Notes under the pieces: generated by a model
Told to the model about the DNA's origin: nothing
Databases searched by the model: none
Seen by the model: the letters and a program-made list of their open reading frames with translations, nothing else
Made by a program: the position numbers and the translations under genes
Source: Chitinophagales bacterium
GTDB taxonomy: Bacteria; Bacteroidota; Bacteroidia; Chitinophagales; Saprospiraceae
DNA length: 61,633 nucleotides
Direction of reading: 5' to 3'
Assembly (NCBI GenBank): GCA_013298955.1
Contig: JAAFJT010000017.1
Location: forward strand, 1-61,633
Part shown: positions 11,121 to 52,563 of the stretch, piece by piece
Layout: each line of letters starts with the position of its first letter
How positions within the stretch are numbered: the first letter of the stretch is position 1

Positions 11121-11293
11121 ACTTTGCGTCGGGTGGTTTTGGGTACTATTGGAACGCGGATGACACGGATTGGGCGGATTCGCACGGATTTTTTTTGAAA
11201 TTCAGTGCCCAATTCCTGAAAAAATCTGTGAAAATTCGCCCCATCCGCGTTATCCGTGTTCCAATTGGATCGCAAAACCACCCGACGCAAAGT
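11121..11293. repeat. palindromic repeat family B, copy 1
   Basis: A 173-base imperfect palindrome. The outer arms ACTTTGCGTCGGGTGGTTTT and AAAACCACCCGACGCAAAGT are perfect complements; the inner arms contain GGAACGCGGATGACACGGAT and its counterpart ending CCGTGTTCC. It lies between mutS and the AAA-ATPase-like gene. Confidence 0.9.
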
Positions 11294-11328
11294 CTAAACC
11301 ATTTATTTTTAATCAAAAAATAAGAACC

Positions 11329-29332: not shown

Positions 29333-29420
29333 TCGATGTTGAATCAGAAATAGAAAATAAGAGCGCGTTGATTGGAAAAACCAATGGACGCGCTTCTATA
29401 TTTTACGAGCAAAAAATTTT

Positions 29421-29596
29421 TATACTTTGCGCACGATACTTTTGGGATACCATGGGAACACGGATGACGCAGATTGGGCGGATTCGCACGGATTTTTTTA
29501 ATTCAGCTTCAAAATCAAAAAAAATCCGTGCAAATCCGCTGAATCCGCGTCATCCGTGTTCCCATTGTATCCCCAAACCACCCGACACAACGTATA
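29421..29596. repeat. palindromic repeat family B, copy 3
   Basis: A 176-base imperfect palindrome, outer TATACTTTGCGCACGATAC and counterpart, inner GGGAACACGGATGACGCAGA with its complement. More arm mismatches than the other copies. Confidence 0.85.
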
Positions 29597-29663
29597 ATTG
29601 TCATATTTTGGTCAAAATATCAAGCGCGTCCGCAAAATATCGAATCTGAAAATTCAAATACTA

Positions 29664-36040: not shown

Positions 36041-36240
36041 TATACTTTGCGTCAGTGGTTTTAGATACAATTGGAACGCGGATGACGCGGATTGGGCGGA
36101 TTTACGCGGATTTTTTGAGTTTTATACAAATTTTTATTTTATTTTGAAAAAGCATTCAAATAAAATAAAAATTTGTATAAAACTCAAAAAATCCGTGAAA
36201 ATTTGCCCAATCCGTGTCATCCGTGTTCCAATTGTATACC
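36041..36240. repeat. palindromic repeat family B, copy 5
   Basis: A 200-base palindrome whose central arms (GGATTTTTTGAGTTTTATAC and beyond) are nearly perfect. Five arm differences, all of the G-U type on the plus strand, occur in the GGAACGCGGATGACGCGGAT part. Located between convergent miaE and M1 peptidase genes. Confidence 0.9.
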
Positions 36241-43547: not shown

Positions 43548-43579
43548 CAAATTTAAAGCAATTTTCGTGATTTTACAAA
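43548..43579 (-). promoter_or_regulatory. promoter of the unknown gene downstream of the array
   Basis: On the minus strand: TTTG (43576-43579), 20 bases, TAAATTTG (43548-43555). A perfect consensus. It begins transcription after the repeat array, so the array itself is not in this transcript. Confidence 0.65.
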
Positions 43580-43597
43580 AATCAAATCAAATTTCAA

Positions 43598-43824
43598 AGG
43601 TGCGTAGCACCGCAACATTTGTAGAAAATAGATTCAACACACATTATAGGTGCGTAGCACCGCAACATTTGTAGAAAATAGATTCAACACACATTATAGG
43701 TGCGTAGCACCGCAACATTTGTAGAAAATAGATTCAACACACATTATAGGTGCGTAACACCGCAACATTTGTAGAAAATAGATTCAACACACATTACAGG
43801 TGCGTAGCACCGCAACATTTGTAG
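43598..43824 (+). repeat. tandem repeat array, forward block (family C)
   Basis: Five units at a 50-base period (43598, 43648, 43698, 43748, 43798). Each starts AGGTGCGTAGCACC, followed by GCAACATTTGTAGAAAATAG and ATTCAACACACATTAT. Units are almost identical; the fourth has one change in the hairpin (GCGTAACACC). Confidence 0.95.
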
Positions 43825-44436
43825 AAAATTGGGATGTTACGGTGCTACGCACCTTTGAAACGCGGTTTTGAATCGTTTTCTACGAAGATTGCGGTGCTAC
43901 GCACCTTTGAAACGCGGTTTTGAATCGTTTTCTACAAAGATTGCGGTGCTACGCACCTTTGAAACGCGGTGTTGAATCGTTTTCTACAAAGATTGCAGTG
44001 CTACGCACCTTTGAAACGCGGTTTTGAATCGTTTTCTACAAAGATTGCGGTGCTATGCACCTTTGAAACGCGGTTTTGAATCGTTTTCTACAAAGATTGC
44101 GGTGCTACACACCTTTGAAACGCGGTGTTGAATCGTTTTCTACAAAGATTGCGGTGCTACACACCTTTGAAACGCGGTGTTGAATCGTTTTCTACAAAGA
44201 TTGCGGTTCTACGCACCTTTGAAACGCGGTTTTGAATCGTTTTTCTACAAATGTTACGGTGCTACGCACCTTTGAAACGCGGTTTTGAATCGTTTTCTAC
44301 AAAGATTGCGGTGCTACGCACCTTTGAAACGCGGTTTTGAATCGTTTTCTACAAAGATTGCGGTGCTACGCACCTTTGGGAATGTGTTGCAATATTGCGG
44401 TGCTACGCACCTTTGAAACGCGGTTTTGAATCGTTT
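43825..44436 (-). repeat. tandem repeat array, reverse block (family C)
   Basis: Twelve units at a 52-base period in the opposite orientation (43841, 43893, 43945 and on to 44399, with one extra base after 44205 and a shortened last unit). Each contains GGTGCTACGCACC and TTTGAAACGCGGTTTTGAAT, then CGTTTTCTACAAAGATTGC. The block ends right against the stop codon of the ROCO gene. Confidence 0.95.
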
Positions 44437-46983
44437 TTATTCCGAATCACTCCCATCTTGGAGATTTAATAATCGTTTTATAATTTTTTGTTTTTCGGTG
44501 CTATCCTTATCCGTCACGCCCATGATTTTTTCACGGTTTAGGGTTTTCCACTCGCCTGCGATAATTGCAATGACGGTTTTGAGTCCCTTATCATGGTGAA
44601 TTGTTGCCCATTGCTCTATTAATTCAATAGCTTCTTTGATTTTAGTATTTGCCACTTCTTTGAGGACGGATTCCTGCAAATCTTGGAGCGTCATTTTTAA
44701 ATAATTGTTTTTTGCAGCATCTTTATCTGAAAATTGAACATTGGGGTTGGGTTTCTTAAAGATTTCAAATCCCGAAAAGGGAATCAATTGTCCTGTTACG
44801 TCCAGAATCAATTGATTTTCAGACGGATGCGCTTCTACATCTTGTCTGAAACAGTAATTTTCGCCATTAAAACTTACTTTTTCCCGAATATTGACATCCT
44901 TTTGCAATTCATCTAAAAGGTTTCGGATTTTATCCAACAAAACGGTGCCGCCATGCGTAACGCGCACGTAAATCGTTTGTTTAGTGCATTTCACTAAGGC
45001 ATAATGCCCGTTTTCGTGCAGGAAAATCCCTAATTGCCAAATTTCGCGCAATTCTGCCAAATATTGCGTTTTGACGATGAAACTTTGCATGATGCCGTAA
45101 TGCAAAAAAGCATGTTCATACGTCAAATACCAATTATTTGTTTTATTTAAATAACTGTCTTCGATACTTTTAGGCATGTCTTCACACATCATTTGCGGCG
45201 CGATAAAATGCCGTTTTTCAAAAGGCAAATCCCTAATTTGGGCATCGTCTAAATTCGGATGGGCTCTTTGAGTCGTTTCAAAACACAAATGACACGAGAG
45301 CATAAAGTCAACAAACAACTTTTGTTCCGCTTCGGAATAATCATCCCCCCAAATATCGCCCAAATCTTCCCCTGTAAAGCGTCCTTGCGCTTGTTGAATG
45401 TCGTAATAAGTTCGATTGCGTTTACCCTTTTCCGTTTTACGGCGAAAGAGCGTATAGACGGCATGGATTGCCCAAGCTTGGTCTAAAATGACTTTATTGG
45501 AAAAATAGTCTTTTTTGTAATACACAACGCCTGCAAAAACCAACCAATTATTTAAAATATCCAGTGCTTCTTTTGCTTCAAAATCGGTTGCTAAGGTCAA
45601 ATAGTCCTCTAAATCCATTGTTTTTTTGCCTTTTTCTTGCAAATCGCGTAAATTTTGACGCAATTTTGCCCAATGCACTGGAATTTCATTTTTTTGATTG
45701 CCTTTGGATTTGATGGCAGCCCGCATCGCCGATAACACGCAGTTGTACCCACTCATATCCGCGTCTTCGATACTGGAATCAACGGATTTAAACACCAAAT
45801 ATTCAACCGATTGTTTATAATTTTGCGCAATTTTGCCGATTTGGGCTTGTGCGTCTAAGGTATCGGATGTATTCGGGGCGGCTTTGGTTTGAATGACAAT
45901 CATCGGACTCTTTTTGCCTTGACTTTTGGCATAATCCAACCAATACGGGAGTTTATGATTTTCATATTGATGGGTTTGACCATCCTCATCACAACTTGTA
46001 TAATCACTTTTTTCGGTATGTAAATCCCACAGAATCAAGTACAAAGCATTCGATTGTAAAAATAAGCGATGCGTCGCATGATAAATATCTTGTCCGCCAA
46101 AATCCCATAAATTGAAAAGATAGGACTCTTTAAAATGTTCATGTTCAAATCGTTTTAAGGAAATACCATGTGTAGAATCCCACACTTTTTGAAATTGATT
46201 GTGAACCAATCGTTCAACCATGCAGCTTTTGCCGACATTGCCATTGCCAATCAATAACACTTTATATTCGTTGTCCAAAACCGCCCCTTTGTTCAAACCT
46301 GCATAATAATTGCGTATGGATTCTAAACAATTTTTGTCATACGTTTGCACAAAACCTCGAATTGCATTAGGCAAAGGATTATTTGCCAAACGCAATATTT
46401 CAAGGCTGATTTTTGTAAAATCGTGTGAAGTTTGCCGAAATAGATTTCCTACTAAATGCAGCGTTTTCAATGTGTTTAAATTCGATAAATCAATGGTTGT
46501 CAATTGATTATCATTCAAATACAAATAATTTAAATCATTAAAATGACCTTCAAACGCAATGCTTTTTAATTGATTGTTACAAAGGTCAACGAATTGCAAT
46601 TTCGGAAAATTGCCTATAAAACGAATGGACTCCATTTTATTATGGTGCAGATAAATTTGTTCTAAATGGGATTCAGTGCATCGAATGATGACATCACCTG
46701 TTAGATTACAATTGCCCAAATCAGCATATTTTAAATTTGCAAATGATTGAAAATCAATTTTTTGTAATTTTTTAACACCATTTGCATACAAATATTCTAA
46801 ATGGGTTGCTTCTTCATTCAAAACCAAAGTTGTTACAAAACTGCTTTCGGACAGGCTGATAGCGGTAATATATTTTTTTCTGTCGTGTGTACTTTGTGCA
46901 AAACAATCTTTTCGACGGCGCACAAAGTCTTTATCAATCGGTTTACCAAGCGTTTTTGCAAGGCTATTGAGTGTAAATTCCAT
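44437..46983 (-). CDS. ROCO protein (LRR-Roc-COR GTPase)
   Basis: An 848-residue multidomain GTPase. Leucine-rich repeats cover about residues 50-210 (LEYLYANGVKKLQKIDF, LEQIYLHHNKMESI, LNYLYLNDNQLTTIDL, LKTLHLVGN). The Roc domain has P-loop IGNGNVGKSC near residue 246, G3 as LWDFGGQDIYHATHRLF near residue 292 and G4 as IQTKAA. A COR-like region follows (WAIHAVYTLFRRK, then PFEKRHFIAPQM), and a charged helical C-terminus. ROCO proteins dimerise and switch between GTP states; in bacteria their downstream targets are largely unknown. It lies 44 bases after the FGE-fold gene on the same strand. Confidence 0.92.
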   Translation of the reverse strand: MEFTLNSLAKTLGKPIDKDFVRRRKDCFAQSTHDRKKYITAISLSESSFVTTLVLNEEATHLEYLYANGVKKLQKIDFQSFANLKYADLGNCNLTGDVIIRCTESHLEQIYLHHNKMESIRFIGNFPKLQFVDLCNNQLKSIAFEGHFNDLNYLYLNDNQLTTIDLSNLNTLKTLHLVGNLFRQTSHDFTKISLEILRLANNPLPNAIRGFVQTYDKNCLESIRNYYAGLNKGAVLDNEYKVLLIGNGNVGKSCMVERLVHNQFQKVWDSTHGISLKRFEHEHFKESYLFNLWDFGGQDIYHATHRLFLQSNALYLILWDLHTEKSDYTSCDEDGQTHQYENHKLPYWLDYAKSQGKKSPMIVIQTKAAPNTSDTLDAQAQIGKIAQNYKQSVEYLVFKSVDSSIEDADMSGYNCVLSAMRAAIKSKGNQKNEIPVHWAKLRQNLRDLQEKGKKTMDLEDYLTLATDFEAKEALDILNNWLVFAGVVYYKKDYFSNKVILDQAWAIHAVYTLFRRKTEKGKRNRTYYDIQQAQGRFTGEDLGDIWGDDYSEAEQKLFVDFMLSCHLCFETTQRAHPNLDDAQIRDLPFEKRHFIAPQMMCEDMPKSIEDSYLNKTNNWYLTYEHAFLHYGIMQSFIVKTQYLAELREIWQLGIFLHENGHYALVKCTKQTIYVRVTHGGTVLLDKIRNLLDELQKDVNIREKVSFNGENYCFRQDVEAHPSENQLILDVTGQLIPFSGFEIFKKPNPNVQFSDKDAAKNNYLKMTLQDLQESVLKEVANTKIKEAIELIEQWATIHHDKGLKTVIAIIAGEWKTLNREKIMGVTDKDSTEKQKIIKRLLNLQDGSDSE

Positions 46984-47027
46984 ACTTTGAATCGTTTATA
47001 AATATAAAAAAATCGGCGCGACAAGCC

Positions 47028-47798
47028 TTAAACTGAAAAGATAGAAAACAATGACAAGCGGAAACCGATAGCGCGAAGGCTATCCGCAGGCGGATCGTGA
47101 TCGCGGTTGGAGACGCGGCAGTCATGCGCATCAAAGTCCCAGTAACCGCCGCGCACAACACGGCGCGCACCTCCACCTACGGCTTTTTCTACGTCACGCC
47201 TAACACCTTGTAGGTCTCTATCCACAACATCTTTGTAAGGACTATAGAAATCACTACACCATTCAAAGACATTGCCACTCATATCGTAGAGGTCTAATAG
47301 ATTGGGTAACTTCAAACCGACAGGTTTTGTCTCACCATGATTATTTTTGTGATACCAACCAACGTCATCCAATTTGTCACCGCCAGCGTAAATGAATGAC
47401 GGCTTTTGTTCCTGTACGCCGCCGCGAGCCGCATATTCCCATTGTGCCTCGGTCGGTAAGCAAAATTGAGTATCTTTGGGGCGGTCATTTTGGGTTAATT
47501 CATTCAATTGAGGCAAAAAATCATTGACAATAGTATTCCATGATATTTGTTCAACAGGGCGATTATCGCCTTTGAAGTAAGAAGGATTCGCTCCATTCAT
47601 TACTTTTTTCCAAACAGCTTGCGTCACAAGGTGCTGACCCATCCAAAAAGCACCTAATTTGACTTTATGAATTGGTTTTTCATCACGATATTCATCACTG
47701 CCCATGTTAAAAGTGCCGCCCTGTACAGCAATCATCGTGAAAGCCGCGTCCGTGCCTTCAAAAAACGAGCAATTTTTAAAATCAACATTCTTTTTCAT
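47028..47798 (-). CDS. FGE-sulfatase/C-type-lectin-fold protein, candidate DGR variable protein
   Basis: A 256-residue SUMF1/FGE-fold protein without a signal peptide. Fold landmarks are the N-terminal IAVQGGTFNMGSDEYRDEKP, YEVT-like HLVTQAVWKKVM, PVEQISWN, CLPTEAQWEYAARGG, DMSGNVFEWCSDFY and RRVVRGGYWDFDA...CRVSNRD...IGFRL at the end. The formylglycine active-site cysteine pair of true FGE is not seen, so this is a binding or structural version. The last 45 residues match the layout of DGR variable regions: every likely variable residue is an NNY codon and the 3' end is GC-rich. It is the first gene of a two-gene unit with the ROCO GTPase. Confidence 0.88.
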   Translation of the reverse strand: MKKNVDFKNCSFFEGTDAAFTMIAVQGGTFNMGSDEYRDEKPIHKVKLGAFWMGQHLVTQAVWKKVMNGANPSYFKGDNRPVEQISWNTIVNDFLPQLNELTQNDRPKDTQFCLPTEAQWEYAARGGVQEQKPSFIYAGGDKLDDVGWYHKNNHGETKPVGLKLPNLLDLYDMSGNVFEWCSDFYSPYKDVVDRDLQGVRRDVEKAVGGGARRVVRGGYWDFDAHDCRVSNRDHDPPADSLRAIGFRLSLFSIFSV

Positions 47799-47937: not shown

Positions 47938-48074
47938 TATACTTTGCGTCGAGTGGTTTTGGCTACTATTGGAACGTGGATGACGCGGGTGAGCGCGGAT
48001 TTTTTGGAACTCAGTATAAAATTCAAAAAAATCCGTTAAAATTCGACCAATCCGCGTCATTCGTGTTCCAAATA
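47938..48074. repeat. palindromic repeat family B, copy 6
   Basis: A 137-base imperfect palindrome; left arm TATACTTTGCGTCGAGTGGT then GGAACGTGGATGACGCGGG; right arm lacks the outer part and ends TCATTCGTGTTCCA. It abuts the stop codon of the TIM-barrel gene (48077). Confidence 0.85.
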
Positions 48075-48076
48075 TA

Positions 48077-48997
48077 CTAAATATCACAAATTTTAACACA
48101 TTTTTTCAAAGAAGCCCATTTTTCCGCATTGGAAGGCGTTTTTTGGACTTTGCTGGTGGGGATAAATTCTTGTGCGACAAAACCTTTATGCCCTGTATCC
48201 GCAATCGCTTTCATAATCGCAGGATAATACAATTCCTGAGAATCATCAATTTCATTGCGTCCCGGAACGCCACCTGTATGATAATGAGCGATATACGGAT
48301 GATATTGTTTTATATTGCGAATGATGTCCCCTTCCATAATTTGCATATGATAAATATCATATAATAATTTAAATCGCTCTGAACCCGTCGCTTTACACAA
48401 TTCAACGCCCCAAGCGGTATGGTCACATTGATAATCTTTATGGTCCACTTTACTATTCAACAACTCCATGACCACATTGATTTTGTGTTTTTCCGCCAAA
48501 GACATCAATTTTTTCAGCCCTTCTGCGCAATTTTTAACCCCCATTTCATCCGATAAACCGTCCCGATTGCCCGAAAAACAAATAATATTGGGCAAACCCG
48601 CTTTTGCCGCTTTCGGAATCAAGTCTTCATAAAAAGGAATCAGCGTTTCATGGTTTTCAATCCGATTAAAACCTTTGGTAATCCCGAAACCTTTAGGTTG
48701 CGCAAAGCCCATAGAGGAGACCAAACCATATTTTTTCGCCATATCCCATTCGCTTGGTTCGAGCAAATCAATGGCAACCAACCCCAATTTTTTGCCCATT
48801 CGACATAATTCTTCCAATGGAATGGTCGAATAACACCATCTACACGCGGAATGGTTGATTTTACCCGATGCTTTTACGGCATCTAACTGGTTTTCAGCCG
48901 CCGCGATGCGATTGAGCATCGCATCAGAAGCCATTGAAAGCCCTGTTGCCCCTGCCAATGTTTTCAAAACGGAACGCCGAGAGTCGTTTGTAATCAT
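48077..48997 (-). CDS. exported TIM-barrel sugar isomerase-like protein
   Basis: A 306-residue xylose isomerase-like TIM barrel close to hydroxypyruvate isomerase (Hyi). It has a twin-arginine-type leader, RRSVLKTLAGATGLSMAS, so it may be exported folded. Motifs include CRWCYSTIPLEELCRMGKKLG, AIDLLEPSEW, IICFSGNRDGLSD, VVMELLNSKVDHKDYQCD with the metal-binding glutamate, LLYDIYHMQIMEGD and HYHTGGVPGRNEID. The substrate is likely a small hydroxy sugar or keto acid. The gene is single, with repeats on both sides. Confidence 0.85.
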   Translation of the reverse strand: MITNDSRRSVLKTLAGATGLSMASDAMLNRIAAAENQLDAVKASGKINHSACRWCYSTIPLEELCRMGKKLGLVAIDLLEPSEWDMAKKYGLVSSMGFAQPKGFGITKGFNRIENHETLIPFYEDLIPKAAKAGLPNIICFSGNRDGLSDEMGVKNCAEGLKKLMSLAEKHKINVVMELLNSKVDHKDYQCDHTAWGVELCKATGSERFKLLYDIYHMQIMEGDIIRNIKQYHPYIAHYHTGGVPGRNEIDDSQELYYPAIMKAIADTGHKGFVAQEFIPTSKVQKTPSNAEKWASLKKCVKICDI

Positions 48998-52430: not shown

Positions 52431-52450
52431 GTTTGTGTGCTTTTTTTAGG

Positions 52451-52556
52451 TACCATTGGAACGCGGATGACACGGATTAGACGGATGAGCGCGGATTTTT
52501 TATATAAAAAATCCGCGCTCATCTGCCCAATCCGTGTCATCCGCGTTCCAATGGTA
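52451..52556. repeat. palindromic repeat family B, copy 7 (short form)
   Basis: A 106-base palindrome with arms TACCATTGGAACGCGGATGA and TCATCCGCGTTCCAATGGTA and a hairpin centre GCGCGGATTTTTTATATAAA. It ends 7 bases before the convergent 170-residue gene. Confidence 0.95.
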
Positions 52557-52563
52557 TTTAATT

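Follow-up and report, generated by a model that had tools for sequence, protein, structure and literature searches.

Does the GC-rich end of a small FGE-fold gene in this Chitinophagales genome carry the mark of a diversity-generating retroelement (DGR) when no DGR lies beside it? The locus that raises this question sits in a stretch of 61,633 nt, the whole of which was analysed and is called the window here. A preliminary description had read the tail of the gene as a DGR variable region and had stated that neither a reverse transcriptase (RT) nor a template repeat accompanies it; both were sought throughout the window, and neither is there. The likeness to a variable region is also supported, as the DGR mark is directly visible between orthologous copies in a sister genome. 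We consider it probable that a TvpA-like sensor, paired with a Roc-COR switch, here bears an orphan DGR variable region as its tail, the cassette having been lost, left unassembled or kept in other cells.

Table 1. Features of the FGE and Roc-COR genes, in window positions
Feature	Position	Strand	Basis
LRR-Roc-COR-EAD11 protein of 848 aa (predicted role: GTP switch)	44437..46983	-	Profile matches
FGE / Roc-COR gap, 44 bp	46984..47027	.	
Single-domain FGE-fold (C-type lectin) protein, putative sensor	47028..47798	-	256 aa, PF03781; model and fold search
3' gene end including stop; probable constant, homing side of the variable region	47028..47057	-	C55 repeat, by analogy
Variable-region-like core, 32 codons R216-R247 (RGGYWDFDAHDCRVSNRDHDPPADSLRAIGFR)	47058..47153	-	Composition and codon tests; copy comparison in relatives

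The product of the FGE gene consists of one domain that takes up the whole protein (PF03781 FGE-sulfatase, 132.7 bits in a profile search), and its C-terminal sequence is RGGYWDFDAHDCRVSNRDHDPPADSLRAIGFRLSLFSIFSV. The AlphaFold2 model has a mean pLDDT of 89.7. The solved structure nearest to the protein by sequence is that of TvpA, a DGR variable protein (2.9e-25), which is also the first-ranked Foldseek match of the model (VIA Z 32.6, rmsd 2.2, 232 residues). Two other DGR variable proteins, TaqVP (Z 13.6) and Mtd (Z 13.3), match it less closely, and many FGE-type enzymes score higher than these two. The aligned range of TvpA stops at residue 329, which faces residue 252 of the model, and the variable region of TvpA comprises residues 285-329 according to the available part of its description (PMC6328139). 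By sequence and model, the window protein thus has the C-type lectin (FGE-type) fold with a C-terminal variable region that is found in DGR variable proteins. In human FGE, C336 and C341 form what we take to be the active-site cysteine pair near the C-terminus, and mutants of both are named among the structure matches. The last cysteine of the window protein is C227 and none lies beyond it, so that this protein is without the cysteine pair of the formylglycine-generating enzyme. A GldK/PorK identity was considered and rejected, the score being 91.3 bits against a cut-off of 350 bits for NCBIfam TIGR03525.

A DGR reverse transcriptase would copy the adenines of template AAY codons at random, and mutagenic retrohoming would then leave NNY codons within the GC-rich frame of an FGE tail. 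The 16 codons singled out in the preliminary description are all present, and all of them end in C or T (16/16). This count is weak alone, because Y, D, F, H and N have C/T-ending codons only, and these amino acids account for 11 of the 16. The informative codons, TCC, AGC, CTT, CGC and GCT, end in C or T in five of five cases; in the gene body, the rate for amino acids of this kind is 0.64, and the outcome therefore has a chance of about 0.11. The 16 sites were, moreover, chosen post hoc, and CCG at codon 236 was omitted from them though N occurs there in 48% of templates. At the 13 template-N positions, the C/T share of the window tail is 0.92 (12/13). The tail was also described as GC-rich, which is correct—the 96-base core has 64% GC against 42% in the body—even if the G or C count of 59 that was given is more exactly about 61. 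The 66% GC of positions 47071-47170 is reached by 0.05% of the 100-base stretches in the window, and from body to tail the gene rises by 0.21 in GC and by 0.28 in third-position GC (GC3). For this tail, the GC jump says more than the codon count.

Could an ordinary tail of this fold, never targeted by a DGR, look the same? The R, G, W, A, C and P residues of its frame would raise the GC content, and its exposed loops, favouring D, N, H, Y and S, would supply NNY codons. We regard this as unlikely, although the forced codons speak for it, as does a set of 89 FGE-relative tails, drawn from other bacteria of many phyla, with a mean C/T share of 0.82. These relatives come from loci L114-L192, which hold an RT in L163, a 44-aa RT-like piece in L116 and mostly no RT within the flanks. 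With such an average, the composition footprint is common and is not proof; the window tail does have a GC-rich frame with NNY codons where templates have N, but many FGE relatives share this, and it is thus not specific. The forced codons and the relatives' tails together rule out the codon count as sole proof of DGR origin. The same loci suggest, as a separate observation, that DGR-like footprints may be common without a nearby RT.

The control for the ordinary tail is GldK, which belongs to the same fold family, has the same frame residues and has no known DGR history. Tails could be taken from 14 of 15 GldK loci; their mean C/T share is 0.60 at the 13 template-N positions, and the median change is +0.03 for GC and -0.03 for GC3. 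None of the 14 attains the level of the window tail in C/T share, in GC rise or in GC3 rise, whereas 30, 4 and 12 of the 89 relatives' tails do so, respectively. Within the same genome, eight FGE tails were scored, and three genes that did not fit the tail pattern (on contigs C139 and C150, and a second one on C183) were left out. The window tail and those on contigs C55, C42, C25 and C56 have C/T shares of 0.85-1.00. The tails on C200, C4 and C183 keep shares of 0.46-0.62 and GC3 changes of -0.12 to +0.10, which argues against the ordinary tail. The genes on C200 and C4 still gain 0.12-0.15 in GC without the codon pattern, a point in favour of the ordinary tail, and GC rise alone therefore separates less well. 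Overall, the window tail is like the proven target on C55 and the other variable-region-like tails of the genus. Those other tails belong to L067 (C42, in a protein with Sel1-LRR), L068 (C25) and L069 (C56) in this genome, and to L065 (C154) and L066 (C88, in a protein with a caspase part) in G001, the second genome of the genus that was compared; each differs from every template compared by at least 13 non-A mismatches. The genus has more orphan tails than templates.

The idea of a remote target implied two things that can be looked for, namely a DGR RT elsewhere in the genome and a near-copy of the tail rich in AAC or AAT codons. The first exists. Contig C55 (5,938 bases) carries a complete DGR with a caspase-FGE target, an RT (C55:2447-3328) and a template repeat 3' of the RT, the template lying 1,521 bases from the target. 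All 19 differences between template and target in the 111-base core face a template A, as do all 20 in the whole repeat, and the identity of the repeat continues up to the stop codon. The second was not found in the assembly, a draft of 204 contigs rated 97.95% complete. A DNA search with the window tail returned the tail itself and chance matches only (next E 0.167). A query reconstructed as a template, with the presumed variable codons set to AAY, recovered the tail at 86% (E 8.7e-40) and otherwise chance matches (next E 0.158); a template-tail pair was therefore within reach of the search. Because no template was found in the assembly, the defining template test fails in this genome, and the gene, whose template was sought and not found, is not filed as a working DGR target.

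C55 was rejected as the writer of the window tail, as its template, which matches its own target, differs from the tail in 96 bases at no fewer than 18 positions that are not template A. The closest of all templates compared has 18 non-A mismatches to the window tail in 96 bases. That the tail is a remote target of a DGR in its own genome, as had been proposed, is accordingly very improbable: the C55 RT and template exist and action in trans is reported, in the accessible text of PMC10907252, for DGRs 4 and 5 of Thiohalocapsa PB-PSB1, but every template compared mismatches and neither query brought up another one.

The search was also carried beyond the assembly. Template fragments of 48 bases for 17 tails were absent from the loci examined, phage records gave no template match, and seven plasmid records gave matches of 30-32 bases (E 0.4). 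Viral contigs contain 44 loci with FGE relatives, with a best segment identity of at most 44%. No RT remnant was detected in the window or in eleven other loci without a DGR RT (best E 0.81). Two further RTs of this genome were rejected as DGR RTs: for L001 (C131), retron-type models score best, below or near the cut-off, and for L003 (C57), the Drt2 model does, with 344 bits against a cut-off of 390.

Against its orthologs, the window tail differs at 20 of 39 third positions and the body at 114 of 207; since tail and body diverge alike, the between-species comparison alone gives no support. The window gene is a single copy, and the pattern described below was observed in orthologous or related copies of G001, G058 and G125. 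Copies were compared in eight multi-copy loci (G001, G058, G125, G152, L126, G179, G192 and G034).

G001 has two tandem orthologs of the window protein, with 54 and 56% identity to it. Between these two genes, 67 of 203 third positions differ in the body and 0 of 40 in the tail (Fisher 1.6e-5), and the tails have 18 differences at codon positions 1 and 2. A pair on contig C43 of G001, one gene of which encodes an nSTAND1-FGE protein, has the tail in common and hardly the body; 15 of its 16 tail differences are at positions 1 and 2. This is the pattern that retrohoming from one common template would leave. The template for the tandem pair was not found in G001, nor was a DGR RT at the thresholds used; the single RT match (L064, on C108) reads from its sequence as an RT-Cas1-like fusion and was set aside.

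Other loci without an RT agree to differing degrees. In G058, 1 of 42 tail third positions differs (Fisher 5.6e-4), and the tail differences split 14 to 1 between positions 1 and 2 and position 3. The bodies of these copies are close (0.09 at third positions), and positions 1 and 2 rise from 0.03 in the body to 0.17 in the tail; the sign is this rise rather than a third-position contrast. In G125, the tail third positions differ at 2/46, 1/41 and 2/41 (Fisher 2.8e-6, 6.5e-7 and 3.7e-6). The mark is weak in G152, where 12, 9 and 6 of 36 third positions differ, and there is none in L126 (16/36). The RT-bearing loci G179, G192 and G034, whose templates have 0 non-A mismatches, give 0/38, 2/38 and 0/37 (Fisher 5.3e-6, 3.1e-5 and 1.7e-4). 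By a crude clock, the RT-less tails of G001, G058 and G125 would have been written about as recently as those adjacent to an RT. That the closest relatives carry this mark is a further argument against an ordinary tail in the window.

Gene conversion between tails, combined with strong selection for amino-acid change and needing no template, would likewise leave similar tail third positions beside diverged bodies. It would also suit the lack of a template for the RT-less copies of G001 and of G125, a genome of 4 contigs rated 100% complete. There, a DNA search with one tail brought up no template: beyond chance matches, it recovered the three tails and 55 bases in a further lone FGE gene; a DGR RT with its own template lies elsewhere in that genome. 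We nevertheless give gene conversion very little credence. The differences split 18 to 0 in G001 and 14 to 1 in G058 between positions 1 and 2 and position 3, the differing tail codons end in C or T in both copies at 11/13 (G001), 10/11 (G058) and 13/16 (G125a/b) sites, and RT-bearing loci of the same module, with known templates, look alike.

The module in question is the pairing of the FGE gene with the LRR-Roc-COR-EAD11 gene, which follows it in the window. The latter protein matches COR-A (81.4 bits), Roc (80.3), LRR_4 (52) and COR-B (42.3), and EAD11 at 26.1 bits, barely at the cut-off of 26. With EAD11 at the cut-off, the protein shows the features of an AP-GTPase (Roc-COR) conflict system (PMC8195603), namely LRR, Roc and COR plus a variable effector or EAD at the C-terminus. 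In G001, the tandem FGE pair is followed by an LRR-Roc-COR-CHAT gene, and in G093, G024 and G034, an RT lies between the FGE gene and the Roc-COR gene. The window also has repeats: arrays of 50- and 52-base direct repeats (43548-44452) lie immediately downstream of the Roc-COR gene, and paired inverted repeats around GGAACGCGGATGACACGGATTGGGCGGATT are dispersed (e.g., 11137-11298, 29386-29631, 36059-36237, 47957-48077 and 52444-52561), one pair being immediately upstream of the FGE gene. Several GGTCGGCGAGGTTGCAACCTCGCCGACC palindromes also occur in the window.

Across the family, a DGR RT similar to that of C55 was found in 23 of 199 genomes (E 1e-25). Thirty DGR loci (L004, L084-L112) stand for 33 RT places, and in 26 of the 30, an FGE-type template pairs with a variable region at no more than one non-A mismatch in 80 bases; L096, L098, L108 and L110 gave no FGE-type pair. 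The window Roc-COR protein was matched at E 1e-40 in 21 of 199 genomes, with up to four candidates scored per genome. Among the 29 matches so obtained, the seven best, the window included, adjoin an FGE gene; 10 of the remaining 22 were examined and have none alongside, several of the contigs being short. FGE and Roc-COR genes occur together in 12 loci, six of which have an RT (G179, G190, G192, G093, G034 and G024) and six of which have none within the stretch examined (the window, G001, G058, G152, G125 and L126). G027 is a seventh locus with an RT and has a Roc-COR gene, but its contig is short and shows no FGE gene. A tree of 23 Roc-COR proteins carries a long-branch warning that includes the grouping of G027 with G024; in it, a branch (94/92) has the FGE-linked rows together on one side, and 0 of 500 shuffles gave as few changes. 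The window protein falls in an FGE-linked set of eight rows (100/99), of which three have an RT and five lack one, and the RT is therefore patchy within one lineage of the module.

The orphan variable region, which remains our preferred reading, suggests the following mechanism. We infer that a DGR wrote this very tail, which would be a C-terminal ligand face drawn from DGR variants. Binding of a ligand may be relayed to the LRR-Roc-COR protein as a GTP-dependent switch, and the EAD11 adaptor domain (CHAT in G001) would engage an effector. The RT-template cassette, which relatives possess, may have been lost from this lineage, may occur only in other cells of the population or may have remained unassembled. 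A more speculative extension, which we think rather doubtful, is a travelling diversifier: a mobile, episomal or minority-held RT-template cassette would re-write resident sensors, so that fresh variable regions would outnumber or outlast templates.

Of the known systems, TvpA of Treponema denticola (PDB 2Y3C) is the best match in sequence and fold, and its variable region is C-terminal, as is the putative one of the window protein. The DGR of TvpA has a known template, whereas none was found in the assembly for the window tail; furthermore, the window gene is paired with a Roc-COR gene, whereas TvpA was compared as a protein alone. The C55 DGR likewise has an FGE-fold target and a GC-rich NNY tail. 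It differs in its complete cassette, its caspase-FGE fusion target and a template that mismatches the window tail, the window protein being single-domain.

Another known kind is that of FGS (FGE-fold) domains linked to DGRs and to a STAND or AP-GTPase (Roc) switch, for which roles in conflict systems are proposed in the available text of PMC8195603; the counter-invader defence role of AP-GTPase (Roc-COR) systems is a prediction there. Because such roles are already proposed, the kind of system is known. FGS conflict systems with a DGR together with Roc-COR also appear in the accessible part of PMC7159879. In what these sources make available, such systems share with the window an FGE-fold sensor, an LRR-Roc-COR protein with a variable C-terminal domain or EAD and a DGR nearby or elsewhere. 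The sources describe fusions within a single protein and effector genes that adjoin, whereas the window module and its relatives have a separate single-domain sensor gene in one to three copies and a cassette that comes and goes. Among the matches listed and in the available texts of mostly open-access journal papers, no description was found of so loose an arrangement, in which the sensor genes stand apart and the cassette is patchy. In the same literature, a DGR with Roc-COR was found in PMC7159879 only, and a DGR with AP-GTPase, among the matches listed, in PMC7159879 and PMC8195603.

A missing template has a precedent in DGR 7 of Thiohalocapsa PB-PSB1, whose variable regions, as given in the accessible text of PMC10907252, are not matched perfectly anywhere else in the reference genome, and for which long reads revealed cells with intact RT and template. 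The window is known from an assembly alone, and no RT remnant was seen in it.

If the window tail is indeed an orphan variable region, some hypermutated sensors escape surveys that require a nearby RT or template, and such sensors can be detected by combining copy comparison with a codon footprint. The location of the template is directly testable in G125, with its few contigs and its three tails that appear freshly written. Finally, Roc-COR is the domain pair of human LRRK2, and the recurring pair of a putatively hypervariable sensor and a Roc-COR protein would provide a concrete system for addressing what bacterial Roc-COR proteins respond to.
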